Source: a virus
Virus record (IMG/VR): IMGVR_UViG_3300008267_000499
Location: 1 to 32,898 of that record
DNA: 32,898 bases
Reading direction: 5' to 3' (one strand)
The translations under genes and the position numbers were made by a program. Of this stretch, positions 2,593 through 30,739 are shown piece after piece (positions within the stretch are counted from its first letter, which is position 1; every line of letters starts with the position of its first letter). The notes below the pieces were generated by a model. The model saw nothing but the letters and a program-made list of their open reading frames with translations. It made no database searches and was not told where the DNA came from.

Positions 2593-2593
2593 G

Positions 2594-3574
2594 TTATACT
2601 CCTATAGAAATTAGTGGACCATATTGGGCTAGTGTTTTAGTTGTTGACCATGTTGCTGGTGGTGTTGTTCCAGACATCGACCAAGCAGCGTTACCTAGGA
2701 ACTGTATGCTTGATGTTGTTGACATTGGCATAAAAGGCGACTGTGAGAATCGAGATATTGTTGGATCTGTTCCACCACCATTATTCGAAGATAAAGATAA
2801 CCAATATATTCCAGGCTGTAAAACTAAACTTAAACCTGGTAGTGTTTTTACTCCAGTTGTAGTTGCGAATATTGTACTAGTCGATAGCAGCCTAGTTCCT
2901 GGATAATCTAGGCCAGAAGTAGCATTAGAATAAACACCTAGAGTTAATTGAGATGAACCCGTAGAAGCTGTCACAACGTTTATACTCATAGAAGTTACAG
3001 TTAATGTGTTAGTAATTAATATTGGTGTAGCAAAAGTCGTGCTGTTTGCAAAAGTTCCAGTTAATATTGAACCAGAAAACTGTGGAACATAAGTATAGCC
3101 GGTTTCCATTTTTCTTAAAGTTGACTGTTGTGAAGTTGGATACCAGTAAGTTCCATCCCAAGTATAGTTAACATCAATATCTGCAACATAACAAGTATCA
3201 CCTTCAGCGATATCTACCGCAGGCATAGCGTCTCTATCTGTTAAAGTTGGAAAATTAAATCTTTTAAGGGTTAAAATCCATGCACTAGTTCCGCCATTAT
3301 TGTTCCAAATAAAATATCTTTTTAAGTCTCTAACATAACACACGTCACCATCAACTAAAGCTGGCTTATTCGTACTATCAATCACTAAACCGGTAGTAGG
3401 GCTATAAACTAGATCCCTTGCTGCCGTTGTTTCAAAAGATAAAATTTTGTATTGAAACCTATTTGTTATAGCCTCATCTACCCCGCTAGCCAACACAGCG
3501 AAATGACTATGTAAAGGGATGAGCACAGACGATGCGTCTGGTGTAACAAGTTTCAGGTTAGCTGTTTGAGCCAT
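2594..3574 (-). CDS. Tail fibre protein with internal repeat and beta-rich C-terminus
   Basis: The 326-residue protein starts with the same anchor motif as the gene downstream (PDxSSxLxPLxSHFAxxA). Between about residues 65 and 150 it carries two copies of a short module: DGDVCYVRDLKRYFIWN and EGDTCYVADIDVNYTWDG. The C-terminal 160 residues are rich in Ser, Thr and beta-strand-forming residues (for example LGVYSNATSGLDYPGTRLLS, then LQPGIYWLSLSS) and resemble jelly-roll or carbohydrate-binding folds of fibre tips. It lies between two other tail-tip genes. A role in host recognition is inferred from position and composition. Confidence 0.6.
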   Translation of the reverse strand: MAQTANLKLVTPDASSVLIPLHSHFAVLASGVDEAITNRFQYKILSFETTAARDLVYSPTTGLVIDSTNKPALVDGDVCYVRDLKRYFIWNNNGGTSAWILTLKRFNFPTLTDRDAMPAVDIAEGDTCYVADIDVNYTWDGTYWYPTSQQSTLRKMETGYTYVPQFSGSILTGTFANSTTFATPILITNTLTVTSMSINVVTASTGSSQLTLGVYSNATSGLDYPGTRLLSTSTIFATTTGVKTLPGLSLVLQPGIYWLSLSSNNGGGTDPTISRFSQSPFMPMSTTSSIQFLGNAAWSMSGTTPPATWSTTKTLAQYGPLISIGV

Positions 3575-3583
3575 TTTTTTCTC

Positions 3584-4372
3584 CTATGCAGAATAAGTTA
3601 TCTTAATTTTAGGTGGATAATCTTTAGCGAAACCATCATAAGTACTGTAACTAAATGAAGATCCAACTCCAATAGAAAAGCCCGTTATAGTTTTAGCCTT
3701 TAATCCATTATACACTGTTGCAGATAAAGGAATCCAAGATCCTTCGCCAGAATAAAAAGTATCTTCAAAAGGATTATCTCTAGATGTTGGCATTGTTGGC
3801 ACTTGATAAGCATGTGTACCAAGCTTCACTACAGAACCATAATTTGGGTCTGCTGCATACCTGTTTTTAAGGTAAACGCTAGCTGATGTTATTGTTCTTG
3901 AAGCAAGCCGGTTAAGATCTGTGTTAGAAAACCAAAATGAAGAAACATATCTTAAACCATTATATGTGCCCTGATATAGCAGTCCAGCATCATCGTAAGC
4001 TCCAGAGCCAGTAATTAGTGCACCACTATCTTGATTCCAGCAGGCAGAACCTGAAGCAGTAAAAATAAGTGTGCCTGGGCCAGCAGCATTTACACTAGTA
4101 GGTGACTTTAAAGAAATAACTGGGGTAGCTTTTAAAGTTGTTTGTAACGCCGTAAAAGATACTGCGTTTGCTGTTGTTTCACTAAAATATTTTATTTGAT
4201 ATTCCAGATCCGATATTAATTGCTGATATCTGATATCGTTTGCATCCATGCTAGCTAACTGTGCCTTTATTGCCGGTATTGCTTCTAGCCCAAGTTCGTC
4301 TAGTTGAGCGTCAACCCAACGGGACCATTTCTGCATTTGTGCAGGAGAATTAGATAAAGGTTTAGTTGTCAT
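3584..4372 (-). CDS. Minor tail protein
   Basis: The 262-residue protein begins with a helical, probably coiled-coil segment (about residues 8-70, WSRWVDAQLDELGLEAIPAI and on) and continues as a beta-rich domain with many Ser/Thr/Tyr residues and the ending YPPKIKITYSA. Its start overlaps the end of the upstream 560-residue tail gene by 11 bases, so the two are coupled. Position between the probable tail hub and the fibres suggests a tail-tip or baseplate component, perhaps joining fibre to hub. No specific family recognised. Confidence 0.55.
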   Translation of the reverse strand: MTTKPLSNSPAQMQKWSRWVDAQLDELGLEAIPAIKAQLASMDANDIRYQQLISDLEYQIKYFSETTANAVSFTALQTTLKATPVISLKSPTSVNAAGPGTLIFTASGSACWNQDSGALITGSGAYDDAGLLYQGTYNGLRYVSSFWFSNTDLNRLASRTITSASVYLKNRYAADPNYGSVVKLGTHAYQVPTMPTSRDNPFEDTFYSGEGSWIPLSATVYNGLKAKTITGFSIGVGSSFSYSTYDGFAKDYPPKIKITYSA

Positions 4373-6044
4373 AAGGGTTTAAAGTATCTCCTAACGGAAT
4401 GATAGACATGTCAGAAAAAGTCATTCCAAAATAATATGAACCAACTTGTTCAAATGTTAAAGCAGGATATCTTAAATTAAAATCTGAAAACTTTTTACCA
4501 GAATTAAGTGCATCCGTATTAAATGAATTAAAATTATTAGGTGCATATGAAACACTGTTATTATATTGATTAAAATTAGCTGAATAAGTAGAAGCCAAAT
4601 CATCAAAAACAGTATCAGCCTTACCAGTTAAACCAATACCAGAATCAGAAACATTAGCATTAACAACACGATAATAACCATTATTGTAAAAAAACCTTGC
4701 ACCAGCAATCTTATTTATCTCATCAGGCAAACCAGACGAACCTATTGTAAGGCTAACCGAAGTCGTCGGCCCAGTAGCATTAGCTGCAGACTGAATCAAA
4801 TGATAAGAAGCATCCGAAATAAACAGATTATCTACAGTAGCTTTAGAATCCCTAGAAATAAACTTTTCATCAGCACCAGTATCAACAGTACGCAACTCTT
4901 TAGTATACCTAACTCCCTCACCACAAATAAATAAAGCAGGCTGAGTAGCATCAGAATAAACTTCAGCTAACCTAAAAGGCTCCTGATAAGGCGAACTAGA
5001 CTGCAAAATATCTGGAGCCTTAATAGACACAATTATCTGAGAATTATTTTCTTTAGAAATACTTACAGTAACCTTCCCACCATTACCATTCCACCAAGCA
5101 GGAGGCACAGGAATATTAAGATTATCTACCACAACATAAGGAGAAATACCTATACCACCAGAAAAAGGCAGAGGATCAATTCTAGTTACACAAGTTGGCT
5201 GAAAAATTTTTGACTCTATAGTAGAAGCCTCCATCTCAATAGTTTCACTTTTTTGTTCACCAAAATTAACTTGATAAGCAGTATCCGCTCTAGCTATAAC
5301 AGTGTCAGTCTCCCAAGTGCTTTTATATTCAGTGATCTCAACTTTTCTACTAGTACCCAATAATGTTGTACTTAGATTTGCGCCAGAACTTTCTTTAACA
5401 GATATGGTTGTTTTGCGAATATCTTTTAAACCAACGTTTCCTAAAGCATCAAAAAATATTTCTGCCTGATTAGCGACACAAAACATTTTAATATACTCCC
5501 AAACGTTACCCCTCCAAGCAATATAAGCTACAGGACTTATCTTAAACCTAGAAGAAATATTATCTGGATTAACTATAATATCTCCAAGGCTACAATAATA
5601 TATGAAAGCTGTAGCCATTGTAGCTCCAGCCCCAAAATGTGGGTCAGCTGTTTTTTCACAATTCAATTTAAAAAGAATGCTGTCCACAGAAAAATCTGCT
5701 ACACCACTTGCCGGTAAAGACATAGAACTAACTGTGCCAAAAAACGCTCCACGACCATAATCTATTTTTTGATAATCAAATTTAGATTCATCAGAAAACA
5801 TTCCATAATCATATAAAGAAACTTCTCGCCCTAAAAGAGCTGTAGTTCTTTCTGCACCAGGAAGATTAACCCTATTTCCGTTTGCATCAACTTTAGTAGA
5901 TAAAACTGGCATAGACAATGACATTGATCCAGTTGAAGCACCACTATCTGTAGCGTCAGTAGAAACAGCATCAATGTTTATTGAATATGTTTGTATCTCC
6001 GGAAATTTAGCTGAACCAGAAGATGGAACTATTTTTATAGCCAC
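4362..6044 (-). CDS. Minor tail protein, probable tail-tip hub (Tal-like position)
   Basis: The 560-residue protein is the second gene after the tape measure, where siphoviruses encode the tail hub or tail-associated protein. It starts MAIKIVPSSGSAKFPEIQTY and shows a beta-rich N-terminal region (about 1-130, with a GRGAFFGTVSSM segment typical of hub domains that fold around a central channel). A long middle region follows, including YIKMFCVANQAEIFFDALGN, a pattern seen in hub proteins of this class, and a C-terminus rich in Asn, Ser and aromatic residues. It overlaps the genes on both sides by about ten bases. No peptidase or lysozyme motif is visible. Confidence 0.6.
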   Translation of the reverse strand: MAIKIVPSSGSAKFPEIQTYSINIDAVSTDATDSGASTGSMSLSMPVLSTKVDANGNRVNLPGAERTTALLGREVSLYDYGMFSDESKFDYQKIDYGRGAFFGTVSSMSLPASGVADFSVDSILFKLNCEKTADPHFGAGATMATAFIYYCSLGDIIVNPDNISSRFKISPVAYIAWRGNVWEYIKMFCVANQAEIFFDALGNVGLKDIRKTTISVKESSGANLSTTLLGTSRKVEITEYKSTWETDTVIARADTAYQVNFGEQKSETIEMEASTIESKIFQPTCVTRIDPLPFSGGIGISPYVVVDNLNIPVPPAWWNGNGGKVTVSISKENNSQIIVSIKAPDILQSSSPYQEPFRLAEVYSDATQPALFICGEGVRYTKELRTVDTGADEKFISRDSKATVDNLFISDASYHLIQSAANATGPTTSVSLTIGSSGLPDEINKIAGARFFYNNGYYRVVNANVSDSGIGLTGKADTVFDDLASTYSANFNQYNNSVSYAPNNFNSFNTDALNSGKKFSDFNLRYPALTFEQVGSYYFGMTFSDMSIIPLGDTLNPYDN

Positions 6045-6967
6045 GCCTCAACCTCTTTTAAACTAGCGGACATGTTAACTAAACGTTTAGAGCCAACAAT
6101 GTTTTTATATTGAATCGTGGGTGGATTAGGCATTATTGAACCTGTTGCTCCTTGACCAGAAGACCAGTTAGTGCTATATTGAACACCAGTTCCCCAAAGA
6201 TCATGTCCATGGCCAGAAGAACCATCAGCTAAAAACAGTGTTGCAATACCACCTCTAATAGTTACAGTTGACGGCGTATTATCTGTTCTTGAAATATATA
6301 TTCTAACCGCTTTAGCCCTATTTGCTGCACCAGTAACATTACTAAAAGTAGCTGATGAATCATAAAGACTCGAAGCATTATATGCTAACTGTGTTAGCGT
6401 CACAGGTGTTCCATCTGCACCAGTTGAAGTCAATATTGGTACTGCTTTAATACTTGCAGTGCCAGTCGCACTATAAACAAAACCTAAACGTAAAACATGT
6501 TCTTCAGGGATAAGCAAAGTTAATGAACGCACAGTTTCCGCAGTATTAAAAACATTATATAATGCGCTTTGATAAGGAAGATTTTTTGCTGTAACGCTAT
6601 GAGTTACAGGTGTTGGTTTGTTGTCGCTTGAAATAAGGCTAGGCCAGTCACGCACAGTAAGCATTGGTGCAGCCCAATGTGTAGGTAAAATGTTTTTGGC
6701 AAACGGATCTTCCCAATAGAGAAGCCCTCCACCATAAATACCGTCTTTAAAATCTTTGATAACCTGCAACTCATCTAAACTACCGTTCCAAGACATATCA
6801 TAGTTTTTAGTTGAGCCAAAAGATGATTTAATAAAACTTCCACCATTAGTGAACTGTTGTTCAGCTAAAAAGCTTGTAGAGTTAGCGTTCATATCTGCTA
6901 AGGGTGCTTTAATCCAAGTTCCGTAACGTTGATTACCGAACCAGACTTTACCGTCATAAACTGCCAT
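6035..6967 (-). CDS. Distal tail protein (Dit-like), minor tail protein
   Basis: The 310-residue protein is encoded directly after the tape measure; its ATG shares a base with the tape measure stop (TAATG). In siphoviruses this position belongs to the distal tail protein, which caps the tube and recruits the hub. Features include an N-terminal YDGKVWFGNQRYGTWIKAP, a central SMSW-like strand with DMSWNGSLDELQVIKDFKDG and LLYWEDPFAKNILP, and a carbohydrate-module-like beta region between about 120 and 260. The ending (NMSASLKEVEAWL) is typical of a virion assembly tail. Assignment rests mainly on gene order and size. Confidence 0.6.
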   Translation of the reverse strand: MAVYDGKVWFGNQRYGTWIKAPLADMNANSTSFLAEQQFTNGGSFIKSSFGSTKNYDMSWNGSLDELQVIKDFKDGIYGGGLLYWEDPFAKNILPTHWAAPMLTVRDWPSLISSDNKPTPVTHSVTAKNLPYQSALYNVFNTAETVRSLTLLIPEEHVLRLGFVYSATGTASIKAVPILTSTGADGTPVTLTQLAYNASSLYDSSATFSNVTGAANRAKAVRIYISRTDNTPSTVTIRGGIATLFLADGSSGHGHDLWGTGVQYSTNWSSGQGATGSIMPNPPTIQYKNIVGSKRLVNMSASLKEVEAWL

Positions 6968-9900
6968 TAATTTGCACCTCTCATAGCTAGTAGCATGTTT
7001 CCTCTGTTTGCGCTTGAAGCAATCTGCCTATCATCTGAATAAAGATTTATAGGTCTGTTTGCCAATGACATCAACTGCATTAAAGCGCTAGAAGATAATT
7101 CTACCACCATTTTACCGTTAGTAGACTGCCCCATGTTTCCATAGTTTAAAGGCATCCTTTGGACCTGTAAAGTGTTTAATGCATTCATGAAATCTAAACC
7201 ATAGTATTTGACTGCTTTAGCGTTTTGAACATATTCACCATTAGATAGCCTAGCTGTAATCGAGTCGCTTCTTGCTGTGCCCGGGCCAGAAACATACCCA
7301 CCTGAAGCATAATGATTCCACTTTAACGGATCCCCTTCGGACCTACCCCAAAGAATATCCAATCCAGCAGAAGCCCACCAATCTTGTTTTTTAAATCCAA
7401 GCAATTTATCTCTAGACTTATTTGCCTGATTTCTTCTTGTAAATATAAGGTTTCTTTGAGCCTGTAAATTGTCATAATATTTTTGAACTCTAGCTTTAGC
7501 ATTTGAATTTAGATCCTCAAATTTAACTTGATTAGGATCTAAGCCTTCATTTCTTACTGCTGTATCATATTGTCCTTTTAGTTCTTCAAGTTTTTTCTTA
7601 TCTAAATTATATTGTTGAGCCGACCAAGAAGAATACATTGCACCATTAGGCATTTCCACTAACTTTAAAGCATATTGAAGTTCACTAGATAAAGCATTTC
7701 TTAATTCTTCTTCAGCAGCTTTTCCTGCAACACTTTCTTGAATGCTTCCTATACTAGCATACATTCCCTCATTTGCTTGCAATTGTTTAAGTTCGTCAAT
7801 AATTCGCTTAAACTTCTTTTTCTGTGGGCCACCTAATTTACCGTATATTTCTTGATACTCTTTAGGGCTTCTCATAGCTCTAAACAAGTCATTTTCACTT
7901 GGAGCATAATCTTTACCTTTAAGCTCTTTTAACGCTGAAGCAAATCTTTCCGTATATGCTTTTTCTGCTTGAGTTTTCTTTTCTGTAAGGCTACTTTCAG
8001 AAGCATTTAAAGCTAACTCTCCTATCTTCTTTTCAGGAGCACCCGGTGTCGGTTTTGGTTTTTTATTTGGATCAGTAGAACCAGCACCACTTGTTTGATT
8101 ACTACTTACAATAGAAGTGACACCATTGTTGTCTTTATTTGCAGCCCACCATTCAATCCAAGCACGCATGCCTGGGTCGGCAACAACTTTAACTGTAAGT
8201 TGATTAGGTAGTTTTTCTACAATTTTTTTCCAATCTTTAAAACTATCCAAATATGGTTGTAGTTCTGTTTCAGAAAAACCTAAAGCCATTGCTCTAGTTT
8301 TAAAATCAGATTTTAATGTTTTAACTTGATCAAGTATTCTTTGTCTGTCAGCTTTTTGAGTTTCACCAGTATATTTACTATACTGATTAGCTAAAGCGGC
8401 TAAGTGTCCCTGATAATCTTGAACCATGCTACGCATAGTTTCCCTATTTTGAATCGCACCAGGATTCATTCCAACCAGACCAGTACTTGACTGCTCTGCC
8501 GCCTTTTGTGCTTCAAGTTGTTTATCTTGAATTTCAGCAGTCTTGGCAGCGATCTCAGCTCTAAGTTTATCGGCACGCATAGTATCGCCATACCTTAAAG
8601 CAACACTCAACTGGTATTCTAAAATATTTCTATCAGCAGTGATAGAAGATATTTCTCTATTAATACCTTCTAACTGTTTACGTGCCTGTTCAAAACGATC
8701 TGTAACTGCACTCCAAGAATTAGCTAACTTATCTGTAGATTCCTCTAAACCATAACGGACAGCAAAAGCAGAAGACATCAAAGATGAAAGGTCGCTAACA
8801 TAATTTGTTAAAGTATAAACCTTTTTAGCAACATCTTCAATAGCTGCAGCTGCACCAGTTTCATCTATTGTCTCAAAAGTACCCATCAAAGCAGTAATTA
8901 CTTTACTGTTCTCAACTCCAGCCAATGTTGTAGAATCTAATGCTTTAGCTATATTCATTAAGTCATTAAAAATTTCGCTAGAAAGACCTGGAGGCAAAGA
9001 CAAAGCATCAAAACTCTTCTGCAAAAATTCTACTGCACCAGTTCCAGGTTTAGTTAAAGCAGCCTTAAGTATGTCGCTAATCTTAACGCCAGCCTGTTCA
9101 GCAAATTGACCTAAATCTTGTTGTCTTTCAAAATACTTTTTAAACATACCCTGAATAACATCATCCTGCATTGCAGCATTAGCCAACCATTCTTGAGAGT
9201 TTTTATGTAAAGCTAAAGTTTGATATTCAACTTCATCAGTGGTTTCAGAAACAGCCTCAGTTAATGGCCCGTTTGCTTCTGTAGCAGTTTGAAGACCCTC
9301 AGCCCAATCTGCTATACCTGTTTTTGAAGTTGTTATTTTGCTACTGTAAGTTGAAAACGCTTCTCCACCATCTCTAAAGGCCTGAGTGTCTTTATAGATT
9401 GCTTCACGAAATGAAGCTAAACCGCCACCAGCTTCTTCAAGATCCACTTTCATGCTATCCAGGTGAGTTTGTATCATACTGAAAACTGTTGATGCGATTG
9501 CAAAAACACCTAAAGCCGTGCTAGCAATCATCATGCCCCTACCAAACGCCCTAGTTGCAACTGTACCCATTTTAATAACAGCTACTTGTTCTCTACCTGC
9601 AACGGTTCCAGCCTTGGTTGCCACAGTATTAAGGTTTTCAGCTTGAGTGGCAGAATTAACTGCTGTAGTTTCTTCTCTAGTTGCTTTACGACTAAATAAT
9701 CTTTGAAGAGCATTTTGTTTTTTAGCATTAGTATTACCTATTGTTGCTAAAGTATCTTCGTTAGAAGTTAGTGTTGCTTGTTTCATTGCATTTAGTTCTG
9801 CATCAAAATCTGCTTCAGAAGCCATACCTGAACGTCTGGCATCTTTTCTAGAAAGGAAAGTTTTCTCAAGATCACTTCCTTCAGGTACAATTTCTAGTTC

Positions 9901-12900
9901 TCCAGCAGCCTCCATTGCTTTAATTGCTTTTCTAGTAGAAACTTCAATTCTACCGTTAGAACGAACAATAAGTTGTTCTGCACCAAAGAGAGCTTTAGCA
10001 AAAGCCATAATTCCAGACTCTTGTCCACCAATTTTACTTAACGACATTTGCGCAGTTCTAAACGCTAGAAGGCTTGCCGTAGCTTTCATGCTAGCCATTC
10101 TAGCTAAAGTCATAACCGAAACTATTGCCGTTATTGCTGTTGCAACACGCATTGCCCACTGGCCAGCAGGGTTAGCCGCGATCTTATTGAAATACTCTAA
10201 AATACCTTTAACCATGTCAAGTAGAACACCTACTGGACCAGATAATGCTGCACCAAAAGCATCCTGGAACATTTTAAACTGGTTGCTAACAAGCTGCATT
10301 TTAGTTGCAATATTGTCTTGAGTTTTAGCGTAAGAGTCACCCAAGAAAGTTCCATTTTTATAAGACTCTTCAGCATCAGCCATAGCCTGATTATAAACAT
10401 CAAGGTTTTCTGAAAGTTTTTGAAGAGTAGAAATTTCTCTAGTTTCTTTAATGTTCAAAGCATCTAAGGCAACAGTCAAGTTTTTGCTCTTAGATAAAGA
10501 CTCTAAAAGTTTTTTAAAGAATCCTTGTGGATCTGCTTTCCAAAGTTCTTTTGTGCTTTCTGCGCTAAGACCTAATCTTTCTGCAAAAGCTTGTAGAGGT
10601 TTACCTCCACCTTCGACGGCACGGTTAATGTCACCAAACAAACGAGTGATAACACCACGTGCTTGTTCAGGGGCAATACCCAAAGAGGACATTGCTGTGG
10701 CTAAGCCAATAATTTCTTGAGCAGCAAAACCAGAGTTTTCTGCGGCAGCAGCAATATTTTCTGTTAATGTAAGAATTTCAATATCTGTAGCAACAGCATT
10801 AACACCAGCATAGGCTACCGCTGAGCCTAGTTTATTAAAGTCTTCAGAAGGCACGTTTGCTAGTTGGCTGATTCGACCAAACTTTTGTGCAACAGTATCA
10901 GAAGCGATTCCGGTGATAGTGGAGAACTTAGAAACTTGCTCAGTAAAGTTTGTTATACCATCAGCCTTAATACCCATCTGTGCACCAAGGGTTTGAATTT
11001 TAGCCAACTCATCAAACGCTATAGGAAGTTCACCAGTTAGTTTAACCAATTCATAACGCATTCCAGCAAACTCATCTTTTAATGGTTGCATAGAACGTTC
11101 AACAGAAGTAAAAGCTGTTTCGTATTGCGCAAAAACATCTATAGCTTGCCTAAATTCGGTTACAATTCTTCTTAATACTTGGTTGAATTGTTGGTAAGTG
11201 TTTGCAACGTCATAGAGGGCATAGCGTCCGCTAATCCAAGAGTCCATCATTTTACGGTTATAAGCTTCAACCTGTTTCATGATAGCCATTTCATTCTTCA
11301 TTTGACCTTCAAGAGCTTTAGATGCCTGACTTCTTTCTAATTTTGCCCTTTCTCTTGCTTGGTCAATCTGTGCTTGATGATGAATACCCTCAAGACCTAA
11401 AGTATTTGTTCCTTCAACATTAGAAATACGAACATTCTTAAACTCTTGTCTTCTACGCACAGCATCAGGGACTTCGTAAGCCATACGACCATTATTGAAC
11501 TTACCTACAGGCCCTTGAGCGATAGAGGAATCAATTTGATCTACAAGTTTAGTTAACTCGTCGACAACATCTTGACGGCCTTTTTCTTCAGCGTCAGCAA
11601 TTTCTTTAGCCAACTTACGTTTAACTGTTTCAAGATAACTCTTACCAGATACACGATCTTTAATTCCTCTAGCTTTATCGCTAACCTTATAGACATCAAC
11701 TTCAGCAGAAGTTAAAGCTCCAGAAGCATCCCGCATTCTACGACTGCCAACAGGGCCAGCCGCGATGCTTTGCTGAACTTCTTTAAGTTGATCTTTAATT
11801 TTTTTAACTAGAACAGGTGCAACGTTTCCAACACTTGCACTTTCAAGAGCTTTTTGAAGCCTAGCCTCTGCCGCCCTCAATTGTTCTAGAGGGGCCGCTA
11901 AAACGGCTCCACGGCCCCCAGAGGAGGCTTTCTTTTGAACTTCAACCTGCTGTATACCTAACTGCTCTGCAAGGGCTTTAAGCTCCTTTTCAAGCTGTAT
12001 CTGCTCAGGTATAGGTTTAATCTTTTTCTTTTGAGCAAAGAACTGCTCCCTAACACCACCATTAGCTTCAATCTGTTTAGCCAAAGCATCAGCAACATCA
12101 TCCCTATTAAATAAAGCTTCATCAATTTGTTTTTGAACTTTTACAATATCATCCAAAAGCTGTTTTGGTTGCATTGCACCAGACTTAACAGCCTGATCCC
12201 TTTGAGCCTGAAGCAAAAGAAGCCTAGACTTAAGTTCCTCAACCTTATCAACTTCATACTGGAACTCAGCTTTCTTCCTTCGTGCCTGAAGGTTAGCCTT
12301 CCACATTTCAACTTCTTGAAGCTTTTTATCGTATTCCATCTGAACAGCCAAAGCCTGTTGAGCCGCATCCTGAGAAGGAGGTGTAGGCGAAGCAGGAGTA
12401 GCAGGTCTAGCTGCACCAGAACCAGGAATATATTCTGGTTGCATAGTGTGTGGAGGTTCAACAGAAGTTTGCCTCTGCCACATTTTAGCGTTCTCTGGCA
12501 ACGGAGTTTTTTGATCAAACTTTCTGAAACCCCAAATAGCATCAGAAATTTTATTCCAACCAGCCTCAACAAGACTTAACGTTCTTCCAGCAATACCTTT
12601 TCTTTCTACACCAGAATCGGAAGCTGCTTGACGCATAGAAAAGGCGTTAACCAAAGTTGCAGCAGTATCAATTGTAGGGTCATGTGCCTTAGCTTCAGCA
12701 CTGGTAAGAGTCGGTTTTGAACCACGTTTAGGGGTGAGCTCTTCCCCCATAACCATACCGGTAAGCCATTTATATGTTTCACCAAGCTTTTTACTGACAC
12801 CAGCAAAAAACATTTTTGTCATTGACTCTGTTTCGACAAGAAGACTCTCATCTCTAAACTGTTTTGCAGTAGGAGCAGTTATTCCATATTTAGCGAACTC

Positions 12901-15900
12901 TTTACCAAGTTTAGTTAAATCACTTAAACCACCCTGATGAATAGCTAAAGGAATTTTCTTTTCATAAAGTTGAGTTAAAATAAATGCAATATCTTCAAGT
13001 TGATTTACATACTCTTCTTCGCTACCCTTAGTGTTCTTTTCACCGTAACCTAACGATTCAATTCTCTTAATAAGGTTAGGTAGGGCCCTAAAGTTATCGG
13101 ACATGCCCTGCTGTAAACCAATAGCTTTAGCAGAACCAGGGTTAAAATATTGTCCAGTACTAGGGTCAGCTGGTGGAACCAGCATTCCATGACCAATGCC
13201 TATAAGGTTTGGACGCACAACGGTTTGACGTTGAGGACCCTCAACCATGCTCTCAACACCAGCACCAGCTACAACAGAATAACCAAATACTTTATCTCTA
13301 CCAGATCCAGGTTGAGCGCCAGTAGACTCGACATCCAAAGCAACAAGCAAATCTTTAGAAGTTCTAGCAGCCTCTTCAAGGTTTTTTAAAACCTCAGCAT
13401 TACGTTTAGCAATTTCTTCCTGCTTAGAAACTTGTGCACTACGATCCGGAGCGGAACGGAACATAGCCATACCTTTTTGAATTCTTGCTTCAGCTTCAGG
13501 TGTACCCTCTTTTTTAAGTTGCTGTATAAGTTGTACAGCTTTAACTTTTTCGGCTTCACTCCAACCTTCATGGAAACTGTCTGCCAGTTCTCGGCCAGCC
13601 TTATCGAGCACAGCTGTGCCTTCGAATAATCCTTCTTCAAGTCCATCAACGGTCTGTTTACCGGATCTGCGCATTCTTTTAGATGGAGATTCAATCTCCA
13701 TTTTCTTTTCATAACCCTCAATAACAGAATCGGCTAAACCTCCACCGGCTTGTTCCGCTTGAGGTTTAGATTGTTCAATTTCCTTTATGACACCACTTGC
13801 AGTATCTTTTCCAAGATACTTTTTAGTTATTTTGTCGTTTTCTGGAATCCCGGGAACACTTCTTATTCCAAAGCCAGTCATCCTAGAATTAACATCTAAT
13901 GTTTTAGCAATAGAATCTTTTGCTTGAGCAACAATTTGAGGGCTTAGGTCTGTAATTTTTCCGCTAGATAATACTGCCGTTAAACCTAAGATTGCCTCCC
14001 TAAGATCAATAACCCCAGAAGTCATTTCAGGGACTACATCTAATCTTTCAAAAATACCTTCAACACGGTCAAGTGAAATTTCAGCTCCACCAGCTTTATC
14101 TGAAGCATCCTTCTTACCTGCATCAGTTTTACCTGCACCAGCCTGCAACAATTCAGCAAAATATTTTTGACGATTCATACTAAATGCTTTAATGTAAGTC
14201 ATTACGGTGGCGTCAGGAGATGGTCCAGATGGAACACCAATATCGCTTACAAGGCCTTGAGGAAGTTTACCGTTTGCATCTGGCGTTATAGCAGCCTTTA
14301 AAGTTATTCCATATATTTTTTGAAAAGTAGTAGCCAAATCTTTTAACGCTGTAACTATTGGTGCTTCAGATTCACTAACATTCAAGAAACCATACTGATT
14401 GCTGCCAGAAGCATTAAACATTTGAAGCAAAGCTTCCATCACAGGATTAGATTCAGTGCCCTTAGGGTTTCCAATTATATCGACGTTACTTCCAGGCTTT
14501 GTCGGATTAGACATCGCATTTTTAACTTTAACATCTTTATCAAAAAGCAAAGACTGTAGCTGTAGAGTCTCAAGCAACGCTTGTGCAGTAGGATTTAATC
14601 TAGAAATTATTTCATGAAACTTTAATAAAGAATCTGTTGAACCCAAAACTTGATATTCAAACTGAGCAGTATCAGATTCCTCATCCAAACCTTTAAATAC
14701 TTTTTCTGGATTATTTACACCTTTAGTAACTAAAGAAATAAGTTCTTTTAAAACATTAGACATAACTGACTGTCCTAAAACAGATTCAATTTTACCTACG
14801 TTTCCAGAAAGTTTAGGTTCACCAGCAGGGTTTAAAGCGTCAGTAAACTTATTTAAAGCTCTAAGGATAAGACCTTTGTCACTGTTTGGGTCACTCGAAT
14901 AAAGGTTAGGTCCACCTAAAGGTGACCTAAATTCTCTTATAGTTATTCTACTTATAGCATCTTTAACAGATTTAACTAAATCAGCTTTATCTGGATTCTT
15001 TTTAGCATAGTCAGTTAACTGTGAGGAAAGAAGCGCATTTAAGGCAGCGCGTAATTTTCTTGTTTCTTCAATTTCTTTTTCAGGGTTAAGTTTTAAATCT
15101 TGATTTCTTTTTTGGTAAGCAGGTTCTTCACCGACAACAGATTCATCTTCTTTTTCTTCTTTTAAAGAACTGCTGTAAAGGTTCTTTGGTTTAGATGCTG
15201 TGCTAAGAAAAACTCCGCCAAGAGTTTTATTTAATTCTTGAAAAATTAATGCAGCAGCCTCAACAGCCATTTCTAATTGATCTGCACCAACAATCTCAAC
15301 CTTACCCTCAATACCAGCAACACCGTCAGCACCAATGGTTTTTACTTTAACCCTACCCTTAGGAAATGTTGATTTTAATCCACCAAAAAGAATCTGAACT
15401 ATTTCTTTAGTTTCACGGTTTGCTTCGTTTATTGCTGCAAGTGTATCAACATCTGGTGGCACGATAGAACCACTGCCACTTGAAATCATTTCCTGTTGAG
15501 TGCCAAATGAAGAACTAACTGCGGTAGAACGCCTTTTAGCTCTTAAAGCCTCTGTAATAGCATCATCAGATAAACCGCTATTTTCAAGAATTTCTTTAAT
15601 AGCATCAGCTTCTTCTTCATCTCCCTGTTCTTCAGCTGCAACGAAAGCGTTAACTAAATCTTCAACTTGACTTTGAGTGGCATCCCTAAGCACAACAGCA
15701 ACCTGTGACTGGCCAGTAAAGCCAGGTCTGACTCTTTTTAAAACTTCAAGAACAAGAGAACCCATGTCAAAAGGTTTAGTATTAATTTCACCTGTTTTTG
15801 GATTGGTTGATGACTTTACAATATCCTCAACAATATCTGCAACAATGTTCCTAAGCTGCGCCCGTTGCTTACCTTCATCCAAAGAACTTCCCATACCCCA

Positions 15901-16908
15901 AGGAGCGCGGTGAGTTCCGCCAGAATCTGTTGAAGACAATTCTCTATTATCTTTATAAGTGACAGTGTTGCGTAGCTTATCTTTTTCACTTGCAATAAAA
16001 CTTGAATTGCTTTCAAAAGAATCTTCGATCTCACCAATCTGTTCTGTAAGCTCAGACATAAAACCAGTGATTTTAGTAATTCTAGCCGTAGCTACACTAA
16101 TAGTTTTACCTATATCAAGTTTCTCGCTAGGATCTTTACTAGAAGAAAACTGTGCTTTTAAACTCGCTAATCGTGTTCTAATGTTTTGAGCTTCTTGACC
16201 ATATCTTCTACGCATTTCCTCAAGAATATTTTTACGATCTAAAAGCATATTGTGATACTCTGGACCTTTTTCGATTCTAGCTATCTCATCTAAAATCTGC
16301 CTTCTTTTCTTTTCCGCCTCAACAGCACCTTGATTAGCTTTTTCAACAGCTTCTTTACGTTTCTTTAAAGCCTCAACCACTTTCGGGTCACGCATCAACT
16401 GGTTATACTCTTTTTGATAAGTTTCTAACTGTGCACCTTGGGCAGCAATACTTTTAGCTACAGTTTGTTTTTCCTTTTCAAGTTGACTAATAAGCTTTCT
16501 TGAATGCTCTATAGCTAAATCAAGTTTTGGATCAGCTTTATCGCCCTGTTTCGCTTTAAGGCTAGACATTTGATCTATAGAACCCTTTATTGCAGAAATT
16601 CTATTTTCATATTCTTCAAGCTTTTTAAACATGCCTTTAGTGCCACTATACTTAACTGGTGCACCAGCATTTTTAGATGAATCACCAAAAGAAGATTTTA
16701 TTGTAAGAATTCTTTTTTCAAGCTTAGCCATCTTGTCAACAATATTTTGTGTGTCAACATCAAGCTGAATTTTAGGTGCTTTTATTTCGCCTAACTCAGC
16801 TTTTAAAGCAGCGGTCTGCCTTTTTGCTCTAGCAGTGAATTCTTTTAAAGCATTGTCTGCGGCAGATGTGTCTAACCCAAGCCTTATATTAAAATCTTCA
16901 CCAGCCAC
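6967..16908 (-). CDS. Giant tape measure protein with embedded DEDDh exonuclease-like domain
   Basis: At 3313 residues this sets tail length; at the usual 0.15 nm per residue the tail would be near 500 nm. Translation starts at GTG 16908 with AGGAG six bases upstream. From the N-terminus: coiled-coil region (1-350); low-complexity helical regions; the tape-measure motif ESPSKRMRRSG near 1073; an exonuclease-like domain (about 1185-1425) with D1192/E1194 in ALDVESTG, D1330 in IHQGGLSDL and H1409/D1414 in AHDPTIDT; a Pro-rich linker and long coiled coil; a PhageMin_Tail-type core (about 1929-2200); hydrophobic segments near 2254-2285 and 2459-2480; more coiled coil; and the C-terminal ASGGYVSGPGTARSDSI near 3201, common to tape measures. 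Tape measure and exonuclease motifs are seen; nuclease activity is inferred. Confidence 0.93.
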   Translation of the reverse strand: MAGEDFNIRLGLDTSAADNALKEFTARAKRQTAALKAELGEIKAPKIQLDVDTQNIVDKMAKLEKRILTIKSSFGDSSKNAGAPVKYSGTKGMFKKLEEYENRISAIKGSIDQMSSLKAKQGDKADPKLDLAIEHSRKLISQLEKEKQTVAKSIAAQGAQLETYQKEYNQLMRDPKVVEALKKRKEAVEKANQGAVEAEKKRRQILDEIARIEKGPEYHNMLLDRKNILEEMRRRYGQEAQNIRTRLASLKAQFSSSKDPSEKLDIGKTISVATARITKITGFMSELTEQIGEIEDSFESNSSFIASEKDKLRNTVTYKDNRELSSTDSGGTHRAPWGMGSSLDEGKQRAQLRNIVADIVEDIVKSSTNPKTGEINTKPFDMGSLVLEVLKRVRPGFTGQSQVAVVLRDATQSQVEDLVNAFVAAEEQGDEEEADAIKEILENSGLSDDAITEALRAKRRSTAVSSSFGTQQEMISSGSGSIVPPDVDTLAAINEANRETKEIVQILFGGLKSTFPKGRVKVKTIGADGVAGIEGKVEIVGADQLEMAVEAAALIFQELNKTLGGVFLSTASKPKNLYSSSLKEEKEDESVVGEEPAYQKRNQDLKLNPEKEIEETRKLRAALNALLSSQLTDYAKKNPDKADLVKSVKDAISRITIREFRSPLGGPNLYSSDPNSDKGLILRALNKFTDALNPAGEPKLSGNVGKIESVLGQSVMSNVLKELISLVTKGVNNPEKVFKGLDEESDTAQFEYQVLGSTDSLLKFHEIISRLNPTAQALLETLQLQSLLFDKDVKVKNAMSNPTKPGSNVDIIGNPKGTESNPVMEALLQMFNASGSNQYGFLNVSESEAPIVTALKDLATTFQKIYGITLKAAITPDANGKLPQGLVSDIGVPSGPSPDATVMTYIKAFSMNRQKYFAELLQAGAGKTDAGKKDASDKAGGAEISLDRVEGIFERLDVVPEMTSGVIDLREAILGLTAVLSSGKITDLSPQIVAQAKDSIAKTLDVNSRMTGFGIRSVPGIPENDKITKKYLGKDTASGVIKEIEQSKPQAEQAGGGLADSVIEGYEKKMEIESPSKRMRRSGKQTVDGLEEGLFEGTAVLDKAGRELADSFHEGWSEAEKVKAVQLIQQLKKEGTPEAEARIQKGMAMFRSAPDRSAQVSKQEEIAKRNAEVLKNLEEAARTSKDLLVALDVESTGAQPGSGRDKVFGYSVVAGAGVESMVEGPQRQTVVRPNLIGIGHGMLVPPADPSTGQYFNPGSAKAIGLQQGMSDNFRALPNLIKRIESLGYGEKNTKGSEEEYVNQLEDIAFILTQLYEKKIPLAIHQGGLSDLTKLGKEFAKYGITAPTAKQFRDESLLVETESMTKMFFAGVSKKLGETYKWLTGMVMGEELTPKRGSKPTLTSAEAKAHDPTIDTAATLVNAFSMRQAASDSGVERKGIAGRTLSLVEAGWNKISDAIWGFRKFDQKTPLPENAKMWQRQTSVEPPHTMQPEYIPGSGAARPATPASPTPPSQDAAQQALAVQMEYDKKLQEVEMWKANLQARRKKAEFQYEVDKVEELKSRLLLLQAQRDQAVKSGAMQPKQLLDDIVKVQKQIDEALFNRDDVADALAKQIEANGGVREQFFAQKKKIKPIPEQIQLEKELKALAEQLGIQQVEVQKKASSGGRGAVLAAPLEQLRAAEARLQKALESASVGNVAPVLVKKIKDQLKEVQQSIAAGPVGSRRMRDASGALTSAEVDVYKVSDKARGIKDRVSGKSYLETVKRKLAKEIADAEEKGRQDVVDELTKLVDQIDSSIAQGPVGKFNNGRMAYEVPDAVRRRQEFKNVRISNVEGTNTLGLEGIHHQAQIDQARERAKLERSQASKALEGQMKNEMAIMKQVEAYNRKMMDSWISGRYALYDVANTYQQFNQVLRRIVTEFRQAIDVFAQYETAFTSVERSMQPLKDEFAGMRYELVKLTGELPIAFDELAKIQTLGAQMGIKADGITNFTEQVSKFSTITGIASDTVAQKFGRISQLANVPSEDFNKLGSAVAYAGVNAVATDIEILTLTENIAAAAENSGFAAQEIIGLATAMSSLGIAPEQARGVITRLFGDINRAVEGGGKPLQAFAERLGLSAESTKELWKADPQGFFKKLLESLSKSKNLTVALDALNIKETREISTLQKLSENLDVYNQAMADAEESYKNGTFLGDSYAKTQDNIATKMQLVSNQFKMFQDAFGAALSGPVGVLLDMVKGILEYFNKIAANPAGQWAMRVATAITAIVSVMTLARMASMKATASLLAFRTAQMSLSKIGGQESGIMAFAKALFGAEQLIVRSNGRIEVSTRKAIKAMEAAGELEIVPEGSDLEKTFLSRKDARRSGMASEADFDAELNAMKQATLTSNEDTLATIGNTNAKKQNALQRLFSRKATREETTAVNSATQAENLNTVATKAGTVAGREQVAVIKMGTVATRAFGRGMMIASTALGVFAIASTVFSMIQTHLDSMKVDLEEAGGGLASFREAIYKDTQAFRDGGEAFSTYSSKITTSKTGIADWAEGLQTATEANGPLTEAVSETTDEVEYQTLALHKNSQEWLANAAMQDDVIQGMFKKYFERQQDLGQFAEQAGVKISDILKAALTKPGTGAVEFLQKSFDALSLPPGLSSEIFNDLMNIAKALDSTTLAGVENSKVITALMGTFETIDETGAAAAIEDVAKKVYTLTNYVSDLSSLMSSAFAVRYGLEESTDKLANSWSAVTDRFEQARKQLEGINREISSITADRNILEYQLSVALRYGDTMRADKLRAEIAAKTAEIQDKQLEAQKAAEQSSTGLVGMNPGAIQNRETMRSMVQDYQGHLAALANQYSKYTGETQKADRQRILDQVKTLKSDFKTRAMALGFSETELQPYLDSFKDWKKIVEKLPNQLTVKVVADPGMRAWIEWWAANKDNNGVTSIVSSNQTSGAGSTDPNKKPKPTPGAPEKKIGELALNASESSLTEKKTQAEKAYTERFASALKELKGKDYAPSENDLFRAMRSPKEYQEIYGKLGGPQKKKFKRIIDELKQLQANEGMYASIGSIQESVAGKAAEEELRNALSSELQYALKLVEMPNGAMYSSWSAQQYNLDKKKLEELKGQYDTAVRNEGLDPNQVKFEDLNSNAKARVQKYYDNLQAQRNLIFTRRNQANKSRDKLLGFKKQDWWASAGLDILWGRSEGDPLKWNHYASGGYVSGPGTARSDSITARLSNGEYVQNAKAVKYYGLDFMNALNTLQVQRMPLNYGNMGQSTNGKMVVELSSSALMQLMSLANRPINLYSDDRQIASSANRGNMLLAMRGAN

Positions 16909-16942: not shown

Positions 16943-17991
16943 TTATACATCATCTGTTGCAATAATTGACTCTAAATATGCTCTTCTAGTTGGCATTGGG
17001 CCATCATCATAAGTATAAGCAACAATATAAGGGATCTCACCAAAAGCCTTCTTATTAGTTTTCTTATTTTCCTTTTCGCTCCACTTATCTAACTCGGCTT
17101 TAGCGAAACATTTAGTCACCTTAATTTTAAAACCAACATTACTGGCCTCTTCATTACGGCATATCCAAACCGGATTACCACACTCATTACAAGTCTCATC
17201 CTCTAAAGTTTGATATGCCTCAAGGAGCATGAAATCAAAAGGAATCCAAGGATCAGAAGGCTGCTCATGAAAGAGCATGGCAACCGGCCTAATACCGTTT
17301 TTAATAGCAGTTTTAATCTTAACTAGATAAGGCCTATTGCCTGACCAAGTTAAGACCTCGGTAAAAAACCCGCATCCGTTAACTGTTCAAAATATCCGCT
17401 AGCAAGGGTAAGTTTCTGCATAGTCTCAACAATAGAGTTCCAGGCATCAGCAGACATTAGTTCCCTCAACTCAAGCATCTCTTCAGCAGAATATTGACGC
17501 TCATCAACATTACCGTTAGCGTCAATAGCCTTAACAATATTCAAAGCAACCAAAGAAGCAATATAAAGTTTAATCCACTCTTCATTCTCACTGAACTCAC
17601 GACGGTTATCAGGTGGAGTAATCTTTTCATTAACCTTCTTAATCACGTTCTCAACCATCTTCTGGCTAACTCCACGCATAACAAAAGTAATTGCAGACTT
17701 CTTAATTTTCTCTACAAGACCTTCAGCCTTCTTTTCCAGATCGGCAGTCAAAGTCTCATCAAAATAACCCATCATCTCGTCATTCAACTCAGACAGTTCA
17801 AAAGCAGCTTCAGCATCCAAATAAATAGTTACCTCTTTAGTAGGATAGCCTCTACCTTTAATTACTTCACTTAAATTAAAAACTCCTTGCGACTGTGCAT
17901 TCTCAACAAGCTTTAACGTTTCCTGCACAACCGTTTCAGCCGCAGCAGTGTCTATCGGCTTAACTTCTTCTTTAATGTTTTCTTCGCTCAT
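16943..17991 (-). CDS. Tail assembly chaperone, frameshifted long form (G-T fusion)
   Basis: The downstream frame ends at 16943 and is continuously open back past its first ATG (17278) to the slippery site in the end of the upstream frame; the joining codons give TEVLTWSGNRPYLVKIKTAI. A -1 shift there yields a protein of about 349 residues from the start at 17991, the pattern of lambda gpG-gpGT. The T part contains CNECG, then two further Cys, a possible zinc site, and no good ribosome site of its own. The long form binds the tape measure and tube protein during tail assembly. The gene lies between tube protein and tape measure, as expected. The exact shift efficiency cannot be read from sequence. 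Confidence 0.85.
17350..17991 (-). CDS. Tail assembly chaperone, short form (G-like)
   Basis: The 213-residue acidic, mostly helical protein is encoded between the tail tube gene and the tape measure gene. It is the unshifted product and ends GFLPRS. A longer in-frame start at 18024 exists, but it has no Shine-Dalgarno, while the ATG at 17991 has AAAGG seven bases upstream, so I use 17991. Motifs include VTIYLDAEAAFELSELNDEM and the C-terminal LTLASGYFEQLTDAGF. Chaperones of this type coat the tape measure and are absent from the finished virion. A long hairpin separates it from the highly expressed tube gene. Confidence 0.8.
   Translation of the reverse strand: MSEENIKEEVKPIDTAAAETVVQETLKLVENAQSQGVFNLSEVIKGRGYPTKEVTIYLDAEAAFELSELNDEMMGYFDETLTADLEKKAEGLVEKIKKSAITFVMRGVSQKMVENVIKKVNEKITPPDNRREFSENEEWIKLYIASLVALNIVKAIDANGNVDERQYSAEEMLELRELMSADAWNSIVETMQKLTLASGYFEQLTDAGFLPRS
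17362..17371 (-). promoter_or_regulatory. -1 ribosomal frameshift slippery site
   Basis: The minus strand reads GGGTTTTTTA ten bases before the stop of the short chaperone. Both G-GGT-TTT and T-TTT-TTA fit the X-XXY-YYZ rule for a -1 slip in the zero frame (GCG GGT TTT TTA CCG). The -1 frame beyond it is open for about 140 codons into the T-like frame. I did not identify a convincing stimulatory pseudoknot downstream. Confidence 0.85.
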
Positions 17992-18037
17992 TATTGCGCC
18001 TTTCAAAATAAATTTATCGCTCATTAACGGAGTTTAA

Positions 18038-18092: not shown

Positions 18093-19367
18093 CTAGGCTA
18101 CAGTTACGTTCTTGCCAAGCTTGCCCTGTGAAGCAAAGTTGACCATAAACTTAACGCTGTCTTCACCTTCAGTGTTTTCCATGAAAGCGTCAGCAGTAAA
18201 CTTGTAGATAGATACTACATCGGTAGCAAGGTGTGCACCAGTAGCAGCCTTGTTGATTCTAACAGCAAGGTAACCGGTTGGACGTGTAGTACCAGTTGCA
18301 TCCTTATACAAGTCGTATGCCAAAGTCTGTGCGTTAGCAAAAGTAATGTTTCCAGACACAGTTGCAGAGTTAGCTATGCTAACAGTTACAGTAGTGTTTG
18401 TTGAAACAGACCAGCTAACAACCTTAGCACCAGTACCGATACCAGTTCCGCTTACACTCATTCCAACTTCTAGTTTAGAGCTTTGGTCACCAGTCAAAAT
18501 GAAAGTGAATGCAGCTGCGGTACCTGAAGTGGCGGCAAGCGATACAGTGTTGTATGGGCTACGGAAGAAGTTCAAAGAACCACTGTACTGAGCAAATCCA
18601 CGGCTCTGAACCTGACTTTCGTCAAGGATTGAACGGTCTTCAATCTTGTTAGAGTCCTGTGAACCTAGGTCATAGCTGTCCCAAGCGATAGCTTCAGTCA
18701 AGTCAGTTCCACCGTTAAGCAAAGCTGCGGTTGGAGCTGAAAGGAAAGTTCCTTCGTTTGAAATGTTAGCTACAGGGATCCAAGTAACCTTAATCTTTCC
18801 GTTAGAAGTTGACTTAGTTCCAATGGTTGACTTAAGCTCTGGACCTGCACCAGCAGTACCAGCAGCAACAGCCTTGTTCAAAACAATTTCACCAGTAACT
18901 AGGAATCTAGCACCAATACGAATCATTTCACCGTCAGCAACAATGTCAACAGGGAAGTCAGTTCTAACACCAAAGATGCTAACTACGTCACCAGCAGCGA
19001 ATGCTGCATCGTGAGACTTACCTACACGCTTGATGAGGTAATACTTTACGTCTGGAGACTTAAACAAGTTGTAGAACTTGTTGTAAACAGAATCAGCAGC
19101 AAGGTTTGCGTCACGGAAAGCGTCAAGTGAAGCTTCGTAGTTGAAGTACGTTGGGGTTGTTACGTCAGCGTTGTCTACAACGCTTAGGGAGTTATCTGAC
19201 TGTGACTCTGTTTGATTTAGAGTATAGTCGTCAGTAACTGCCGGAGAGATGTTGAAAACCTTAGTTGCGCTTGTGATTTCAGTAAGAGTAGGGTTCTTCC
19301 AGTCAGCAAAAGCGTCTGCGGTTGCAACATAAAGTCCCACATTGGGACGGAGCATTTTAGCAGGCAT
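18093..19367 (-). CDS. Major tail tube protein with an inserted domain
   Basis: The 424-residue protein begins MPAKMLRPNVGLYVATADAF, typical of actinophage tail tube proteins, and lies between the connector genes and the chaperones. The core shows an N-terminal part with ATKVFNISPAVTDDY and a C-terminal part with FMENTEGEDSVKFMVNFASQ. Between the strands ending FFRSPYN and starting AYDLYK, about 68 residues (276-343) form a Ser/Thr/Val-rich module containing LEVGMSVSGTGIGTGAKVVS. This looks like a surface-exposed inserted domain, which explains the length above the usual 200-300. The gene has its own upstream promoter-like element and a downstream hairpin, fitting high expression. Confidence 0.8.
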   Translation of the reverse strand: MPAKMLRPNVGLYVATADAFADWKNPTLTEITSATKVFNISPAVTDDYTLNQTESQSDNSLSVVDNADVTTPTYFNYEASLDAFRDANLAADSVYNKFYNLFKSPDVKYYLIKRVGKSHDAAFAAGDVVSIFGVRTDFPVDIVADGEMIRIGARFLVTGEIVLNKAVAAGTAGAGPELKSTIGTKSTSNGKIKVTWIPVANISNEGTFLSAPTAALLNGGTDLTEAIAWDSYDLGSQDSNKIEDRSILDESQVQSRGFAQYSGSLNFFRSPYNTVSLAATSGTAAAFTFILTGDQSSKLEVGMSVSGTGIGTGAKVVSWSVSTNTTVTVSIANSATVSGNITFANAQTLAYDLYKDATGTTRPTGYLAVRINKAATGAHLATDVVSIYKFTADAFMENTEGEDSVKFMVNFASQGKLGKNVTVA

Positions 19368-25031: not shown

Positions 25032-25041
25032 GATAAAACCT

Positions 25042-25047
25042 ATTATA
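25042..25047 (-). promoter_or_regulatory. Possible -10 box just before the collagen-like gene
   Basis: The minus strand reads TATAAT eleven bases before the ATG at 25031, after the two hairpins that follow the capsid gene. A start about seven bases on would give an almost leaderless message. The -35 region is poor and no TG precedes, so this is weak. Confidence 0.25.
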
Positions 25048-25057
25048 CTGCATGAAA

Positions 25058-25091
25058 GCCCACCCCGGAACAAAAGCTCAACGGGGTGGGC
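25058..25091 (-). repeat. Perfect 10-bp inverted repeat upstream of the collagen-like gene
   Basis: GCCCACCCCG (25058-25067) pairs with CGGGGTGGGC (25082-25091) around a 14-base loop. Read as minus-strand RNA it is followed by TTTCATGC, too short a U run for a good terminator. Together with the terminator 40 bases upstream in the transcript it forms a double block between the capsid gene and the fibre genes. Confidence 0.7.
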
Positions 25092-25133
25092 GGCCACGAA
25101 GGAGGGAGCGTGACAAAACCATTATATCAGCAA

Positions 25134-30633: not shown

Positions 30634-30739
30634 CACCCCTAAAACCAACACGCAAAACAGGATACACAACATCCTCAACACTCTCAACCCGAGACTCAAC
30701 ACTCAAAGAACCACCCTCAGGAACCCGCCCCACAACCAC
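30620..30739 (-). CDS. Hidden 39-residue protein between terminase subunits
   Basis: A frame from GTG 30739 to TGA 30620 encodes MVVGRVPEGGSLSVESRVES and then VEDVVYPVLRVGFRGDEGD. All its codons, like those of neighbouring genes, end in T or G, which is not so in the other two frames of this stretch. It starts six bases after the small terminase stop and overlaps the first 14 bases of the large terminase, so it would couple the two. The ribosome site is weak. The sequence has no known domain; acidic and probably structured by beta strands. It could be a coupling leader. Confidence 0.5.
   Translation of the reverse strand: MVVGRVPEGGSLSVESRVESVEDVVYPVLRVGFRGDEGD

Follow-up and report, generated by a model that had tools for sequence, protein, structure and literature searches.

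We identified a DEDDh exonuclease domain within a long N-terminal extension of the tape measure protein of an IMG/VR virus (IMGVR_UViG_3300008267_000499); the window analyzed was the whole stretch of 32,898 nucleotides. Known roles of tape measures include those of ruler, entry channel and bearer of wall-cutting domains, and no earlier report of a DEDDh exonuclease in a phage tape measure was found in the literature searched. An initial annotation, made from sequence alone, had proposed such a domain inside the tape measure, and this proposal was well supported by the fold, by conservation and by a single, retained origin. The identity of the exonuclease is firm, whereas its catalytic activity, delivery, substrate, target and benefit are inferred. 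With that reservation, we lean by a modest margin towards a genuine and probably active DEDDh exonuclease that would be delivered into the host near the DNA-leading end.

The tape measure gene occupies 6967..16908 on the minus strand and encodes 3,313 aa in a single unbroken reading frame with a GTG start. The protein matched TIGR01760 (E=1.1e-28; 100.3 bits vs. a cut-off of 28.8), PF10145 (E=2e-15) and phrog_17594 (E=1.2e-113). Two small ORFs (16943-18024) and the tail tube gene (18093-19367) lie upstream, and two ORFs (6035-6967 and 4362-6044) adjoin the gene downstream. The surrounding genes read as phage capsid, terminase and tail genes; the tail gene order matches that of annotated relatives, with the tape measure between the tail assembly and distal tail genes. 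The match to a curated model and the position of the gene together showed that the protein is a siphophage tape measure of the TP901 type. Its conserved core (residues 1856-2309; 9982..11343, minus strand) is homologous, at about 30-38% identity, to that of TP901-type tape measures of Curtobacterium, Microbacterium, Arthrobacter and Clavibacter phages, and the part downstream of the core is similar as well. Unlike the window protein, these tape measures start the core near the N-terminus, without a long extension and without an exonuclease. The extension of the window protein comprises residues 1-1855 (11344..16908, minus strand) and is missing from sister tape measures, which carry 45-409 aa ahead of the core.

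The exonuclease domain spans residues 1160-1456 (12541..13431, minus strand; bounds by HMM), with the catalytic part at about 1185-1435. The initial annotation had named D1192, E1194, D1330, H1409 and D1414 as the catalytic residues, and all five were confirmed at these positions of the tape measure. On the minus strand, Exo I (13327..13335; D1192 at 13333-13335 and E1194 at 13327-13329) falls on the first strand of the predicted fold, D1330 of Exo II (12919..12921) at the start of the helix following the fourth strand, and the HxxxxD of Exo III (12667..12684; H1409 at 12682-12684 and D1414 at 12667-12669) at the start of a late long helix. In the model, each of the five residues is therefore predicted to lie on the expected fold element; that they form a single two-metal site is inferred. 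The motifs ALDVESTG, TVVRPN, AIHQGGLSDL and AHDPTIDT start at residues 1190, 1229, 1322 and 1408, respectively, and the order and spacing of Exo I, II and III (DxE, D, HxxxxD) are normal for DEDDh enzymes. The usual strand pattern claimed for the intervening segment also held, since TVVRPNLIGIGHGM coincided exactly with model strand 70-83 (residues 1229-1242), the predicted third strand TVVRPNLIGIGHGML (13180..13224, minus strand). A loose regular expression for the motif, with normal spacing, was present in 4.5% of 2,000 shuffles of the tape measure protein. The motif by itself is weak evidence, being only mildly unusual, and it is the relatives and the structure that carry the exonuclease call.

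The AlphaFold2 model of the window domain had a pLDDT of 89.5 and a pTM of 0.91. When the PDB was searched with this model by Foldseek, the first 50 matches were all TREX1/TREX2 (E 6.2e-7 to 1.5e-5, probability 1.00). The TM-scores to TREX were moderate (0.4-0.6), with large insertions present, and named phage matches included pol III epsilon and DEDDh proteins. A separate model of a domain from a second, distant group of relatives (clade B, below) matched DnaQ (8h18) first (E 5e-3, probability 1.00), followed by TREX1, oligoribonucleases and exonuclease I. These models showed a predicted RNase H-like exonuclease fold for the domain. The absence of any match to this fold would have refuted the initial proposal, which had called for comparison with the epsilon subunit, RNase T and oligoribonuclease; TREX1/TREX2, DnaQ and oligoribonuclease matches were instead obtained. 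The domain is like TREX1/TREX2 and the DnaQ-type enzymes (pol III epsilon) in its predicted fold and in the order and spacing of Exo I, II and III, but differs in its extra insertions and in lacking profile-detectable sequence similarity to them. Unlike the stand-alone or replication enzymes of the TREX and DnaQ types, it is part of a structural virion protein.

Sequence profiles did not link the domain to known exonucleases, which remains a caveat to our reading. Pfam RNase_T (PF00929) had no match in the window genome and none among 16 domain sequences at the curated cut-off; the domain is too diverged for PF00929 and is hence not assigned to the RNase_T sequence family. Single-sequence searches with the domain (Pfam, PHROGs, PDB, phage tblastn and an IMG/VR scan) gave no exonuclease match, nor did a search of NCBIfam, and alignment profiles of the domain returned only noise against PDB sequences. 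The domain profile showed no significant match to L107 and L108, two phage DEDDh enzymes of canonical type, although the Exo I strand was in register. The lack of matches in the Pfam, PHROGs, NCBIfam and PDB sequence searches, along with the frequency of the loose motif in shuffled proteins, would favor a coincidental occurrence of the motifs in a helical tape measure without an exonuclease fold. This explanation is contradicted by two independent fold predictions that match DEDDh enzymes and by the invariance of all five residues in the closer relatives (clade A, below), and we regard it as all but excluded.

The same insertion had been suggested as something to look for in the tape measures of related phages, and 15 distinct carriers were found in IMG/VR, reached via the tape measure core. 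Clade A consisted of the window and six relatives recruited by homology of the core and not by motif. The domains of the nine clade B members were located by motif, so the count of invariant columns over all 16 sequences is partly circular. In the clade A alignment (n=7), 40 of the 301 positions were invariant, and all five catalytic residues were among them (p about 3e-5). Across all 16 aligned domains only five columns were invariant, and four of these were D1192, E1194, H1409 and D1414. Clade B domains were 12-19% identical to the window domain, and D-x-E and H-x4-D were kept in 9 of 9. Profile-profile alignment of clade A vs. clade B gave an E of 1.2e-5 and a probability of 81%, and it placed Exo II and Exo III in register. 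The clade A invariance, the invariant columns of the 16 sequences and the two AlphaFold2 models together place the exonuclease identity above chance.

At the Exo II position, Asp was found in 7/7 clade A and 6/9 clade B members; the remaining three clade B members (L021, L024 and L025) carry Glu, which is a caveat to an active enzyme. This substitution, the variable length of the extension (878 to 1970 aa among domain carriers) and the presence of the domain in a structural protein would fit a real fold that has lost nuclease activity and acts either as a nucleic-acid-binding clamp on the DNA end or as a tail-length spacer. On the other hand, that four of the only five invariant columns are catalytic positions, in a set with members so diverged, is the pattern of catalysis. 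Moreover, the window exonuclease was 48-60% identical to that of five relatives and 31% to that of L013, while residues 1-1000 of the extension showed only 12-29% identity to relatives. The exonuclease is the best-conserved part of the N-terminal extension by sequence identity, and a spacer would not need the domain to be kept so much better than its surroundings. We therefore consider the inactive-fold explanation unlikely.

Directly before the exonuclease lies a conserved segment with IESPSKRMRRSGKQTVDGLEEGL (residues 1001-1150; 13459..13908, minus strand), and residues 959-1147 matched positions 877-1066 of the 1102 in the profile of phrog_5493, a tail tape measure family. In the tree, all domain-positive tape measures fell in one clade (support 98/90), with the domain-negative L017 and L060 as sisters. 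This clade support showed that the extension with its exonuclease was gained once and retained. The length after the core start was similar in tape measures with the extension (1253-1977 aa) and without it (932-1709 aa), indicating that the extension is an addition. A mis-assembled stand-alone gene was rejected as the origin of the domain since 14 further complete reading frames, and one truncated by a contig end, repeated the same arrangement of extension and domain. No conserved internal start codon with a Shine-Dalgarno sequence was found in the extension-bearing tape measures; the additional production of a short tape measure from an internal start was thus rejected, and the long protein is the form in which the domain is made. 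Bacterial genomes were also scanned with the domain and core profiles, and no prophage was found.

In the reading we favor, a long-tailed phage lineage would have added a DEDDh 3'-5' exonuclease once, on the N-terminal side of its tape measure. The tape measure would be packed in the tail lumen with its C-terminus tipward, carrying the exonuclease as cargo near the DNA-leading end. Both the orientation and the ejection of the tape measure are inferred by analogy with other siphophages. In JBD30, tape measure C-termini are in the baseplate, and deeper in the tail the tape measure probably holds the DNA end (PMC11445458); by this analogy the N-terminal extension would be head- and DNA-proximal. 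The initial annotation had the nuclease ejected ahead of the DNA; the N-terminal location refines this, as the domain would pass last within the tape measure, just before the genome. On infection the exonuclease may thus enter the host just ahead of, or along with, the genome, where it would fold and trim 3' ends of DNA or RNA. The likeliest substrate would be nucleic acids of the host or of its defences, encountered during the first minutes and ahead of phage gene expression. That the nuclease acts in the channel, or in the cell upon first contact, as initially suggested, remains an inference only, with neither activity nor substrate shown. There are no activity data and no cultured member, and to our knowledge the transfer of this end of a tape measure to the cytoplasm has not been demonstrated. 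Against delivery, a 30 kDa domain that is folded and probably present as a trimer would fit the tail tube lumen poorly, so the domain would have to pass unfolded or staggered. A bolder version is conceivable, in which the virion-borne exonuclease, delivered with the tape measure, serves in first-strike counter-defence or takeover by destroying host or defence nucleic acids ahead of phage genome expression; we are more inclined to doubt it than to accept it.

It is also possible, though less likely, that an active exonuclease works in the virion-producing cell or in the particle. At the head-tail junction it could, for instance, trim the leading end of the DNA, or the extension could be cleaved away and serve as a free enzyme late in infection. 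The probable head-proximal place of the extension, near the DNA end that the JBD30 authors think the tape measure holds, would suit this, and a very long, poorly conserved extension would tolerate processing. However, no conserved internal start makes a short tape measure separately, and the packaged genome is not known to need 3' trimming. An ejected enzyme might instead remain at the entry channel and degrade the DNA of later phages (superinfection exclusion) rather than nucleic acids of the host or its defences. The entry channel in the membrane is considered to be formed by tape measures (PMC11445458), and a Kyte-Doolittle scan detected a strongly hydrophobic, membrane-helix-like stretch C-terminal to the exonuclease (residues 2458-2480; 9469..9537, minus strand), the only one in the protein at the cut-off used. 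We consider superinfection exclusion very unlikely, since there is no direct evidence for it and few tape measure copies are present per infected cell.

The closest known case of a tape-measure-like injected protein that bears a nuclease is Tme of the Streptomyces davawensis contractile injection system, a tape-measure-related effector with an EndA-like C-terminal endonuclease and a DUF4157 domain (PMC11126660). In both cases a nuclease is fused to a tape-measure-like protein, and Tme is loaded into a tube resembling a phage tail, from which it is believed to be ejected (PMC11126660). The nuclease type differs: Tme has a C-terminal endonuclease in a bacterial contractile system, whereas in the window protein, a true siphophage tape measure, the nuclease is a DEDDh exonuclease and sits in the N-terminal extension. 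The window protein did not fit the Tme type, as its fold is DEDDh and not EndA-like, Pfam gave no DUF4157 match and the surrounding genes read as those of a phage rather than of a contractile injection cluster. Mycobacteriophage TM4 and other actinophages have tape measures with enzymatic motifs (Piuri and Hatfull 2006, cited in PMC13277306). The window protein resembles these in having an enzymatic domain inside the tape measure, and TM4-type domains aid the first stage of infection; unlike the TM4-type domains, which act on peptidoglycan, its domain has the fold of a nucleic-acid enzyme. The retention of a DEDDh exonuclease in a tape measure suggests an ability of phages to send in a nucleic-acid enzyme along with the genome, as part of the protein that fills the tail lumen. 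If true, a virion-borne exonuclease would connect phages with phage-derived injection systems that carry nuclease cargo, such as Tme, and entry of the head-proximal tape measure end into the cytoplasm becomes a question open to experiment.

A PADLOC scan gave just weak matches to single members. Some clade B phages have separate exonuclease genes (L109-L111); these resemble a different, YprB-like type and are distinct from the tape measure domain.

The window belongs to a virus record of 38,517 bases and carries a siphophage structural block on the minus strand, comprising ORFs that resemble terminase (29116-30702), portal, protease and capsid genes, the gene for a tail tube protein (18093-19367, PF25595), two small ORFs at the place expected for the tail assembly chaperones, the gene for a 3,313-aa protein (6967-16908), two more ORFs of the tail and one for an endolysin-like protein with a CHAP domain. 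The 3,313-aa protein is the tape measure; it was firmly identified by matches to TIGR01760 (100.3 bits), PF10145 and phrog_17594 (E=1.2e-113), all over residues ~1850-2285. The initial annotation had placed a DEDDh exonuclease-like domain inside this protein, and its positions for the catalytic residues (D1192, E1194, D1330, H1409 and D1414) were exact. By itself the motif set was not compelling, since 4.5% of shuffles contained a match to a loose version of the pattern and single-sequence searches of Pfam, PHROGs, NCBIfam, PDB and phage records with the exonuclease region returned no relevant match. We therefore sought relatives through the tape measure core (residues 1856-2309), leaving the motif unused.

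The core shared ~30-38% identity with tape measures from phages of Curtobacterium, Microbacterium, Arthrobacter, Clavibacter, Pseudanabaena and Stenotrophomonas; these tape measures differ from the window protein in having the core near the N-terminus and no counterpart to its residues 1-1850. An IMG/VR scan with the core alignment yielded 80 loci. Eight of these (L009-L016, six distinct proteins) had a common long extension with a region resembling the window exonuclease; a scan with the exonuclease domain itself contributed L095 and the truncated L097, and this closer domain-bearing set is referred to as clade A. Nine loci (L018-L026, clade B; the 5' end of L021 is cut) had extensions of ~880-1230 aa with a diverged copy containing, in order, FDTEF-like Exo I, Exo II and HxAxxD-like Exo III motifs, with 219-241 residues from Exo I to Exo III. 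The extension of L106, found in a wider scan and cut by a contig end, matched the same profile. In the remaining tape measures examined, the core was preceded by 45-409 aa and the exonuclease domain was absent. All domain-bearing members were metagenomic contigs, and scans of bacterial genomes with the domain and the core did not reveal a host.

In the clade A alignment 40 of 301 positions were invariant, and these included all five catalytic residues (p ~3e-5 by chance). The full set of 16 aligned sequences had just five invariant positions, D1192, E1194, a proline, H1409 and D1414, although this count is not fully independent since the clade B domains were found by their motifs. The clade A and clade B profiles matched each other (E=1.2e-5, probability 81%) with Exo II and Exo III in register. 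That the motifs are a coincidence can be all but ruled out. Beside this invariance, the reading of the domain as an inert clamp or spacer also appears unlikely; a Glu replaces the Exo II Asp in L021, L024 and L025, which is a real caveat for these three clade B proteins. Within the extension the exonuclease is the best-kept part: between the window and clade A its identity was 48-60% to five proteins and 31% to L013, compared with 12-29% for residues 1-1000, 2-48% for residues 1451-1850 and 57-72% for the core.

An AlphaFold2 model built from the 16-sequence alignment had a pLDDT of 89.5 and a pTM of 0.91. In this model D1192 and E1194 lie on strand 1188-1195, which is followed by two long strands, helices and strand 1321-1323; D1330 lies in helix 1329-1341, and a late long helix starts at 1411 beside H1409 and D1414. 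The segment TVVRPNLIGIGHGM, to which the usual strand pattern had been ascribed, is the third strand, the second of the two long ones. The first 50 Foldseek matches in the PDB were all TREX1 or TREX2 (E 6.2e-7 to 1.5e-5, probability 1.00; TM-score by target 0.48-0.61), and named matches in the viral library included pol III epsilon, DEDDh and exonuclease proteins. A second model from clade B only (pTM 0.78) matched the DnaQ domain 8h18 best (E 5e-3, probability 1.00), followed by TREX1, oligoribonuclease and exonuclease I. Three clade B phages (L109-L111) also have a separate exonuclease-like gene, whose product matches PF00929 in its second half and ends in a zinc-ribbon-like tail; the tape measure domain is unlike this protein.

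A maximum-likelihood tree built from 52 cores grouped the 16 tape measures that carry the domain into one clade (support 98/90), whose sisters, L017 and L060, lack it; a single change accounts for the distribution of the domain. Since the length from the core start onward was similar with the domain (1253-1977 aa) and without it (932-1709 aa), the extension was added to the ruler and did not arise by rearranging it. The part before the core contains no internal start codon that is conserved and has a Shine-Dalgarno sequence. Directly N-terminal to the exonuclease, a segment with an ESPSK...G motif (residues 1001-1150, window 13459-13908, minus strand) matches the late part of a separate tape measure family, phrog_5493 (positions 877-1066 of 1102), as though a second tape measure might have supplied extension material.

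In phage JBD30 the tape measure trimer reaches into the baseplate with its C-termini and, deeper in the tail, probably holds the end of the DNA (PMC11445458). By analogy, the exonuclease, being N-terminal to the core, would sit nearer to the head and the end of the DNA, and would be the last part of the tape measure to exit the tail, just before the genome. It would then enter the cell and trim 3' ends there. We consider this reading the most likely one, with moderate confidence; each of its elements, from ejection and membrane crossing to activity and target, is inferred. DNA is the substrate of TREX-like and DnaQ-like enzymes, and RNA that of some relatives. Action in the particle or in the producer cell is a less likely possibility, and a role in superinfection exclusion is very improbable. 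In the open-access literature searched, with partial coverage and not every match read fully, we found no report of a tape measure with an exonuclease domain of this kind. The nearest precedent, Tme, belongs to a contractile injection system of Streptomyces; this effector is related to tape measures and carries an active endonuclease that is EndA-like (PMC11126660). Wall-cutting motifs in actinophage tape measures have long been known (cited in PMC13277306); the exact combination, a DEDDh exonuclease in a phage tape measure, is apparently undescribed.

Elsewhere in the window, the product of a plus-strand ORF at its start (219-614) is similar to proteins whose genes adjoin the separate exonuclease gene of L109-L111, with the common stretches AAKRALKWIADGKAGGGFT...RVAWDAWGG, and is a conserved phage protein without a name. 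Between the capsid and tail genes, a collagen-like Gly-X-Y repeat protein (23586-25097, minus strand; PF01391, E=3.9e-21) is likely a fibre or decoration protein. Past the window end in the containing record (G000), locus L099 encodes on the minus strand a class II glutamine amidotransferase (2056-3234; PF13522, E=2.5e-19) and, near it, a putative Amidoligase_2 protein (3707-5290; PF12224, E=2.1e-6), neighbours that could form a peptide or cell-wall modification pair.
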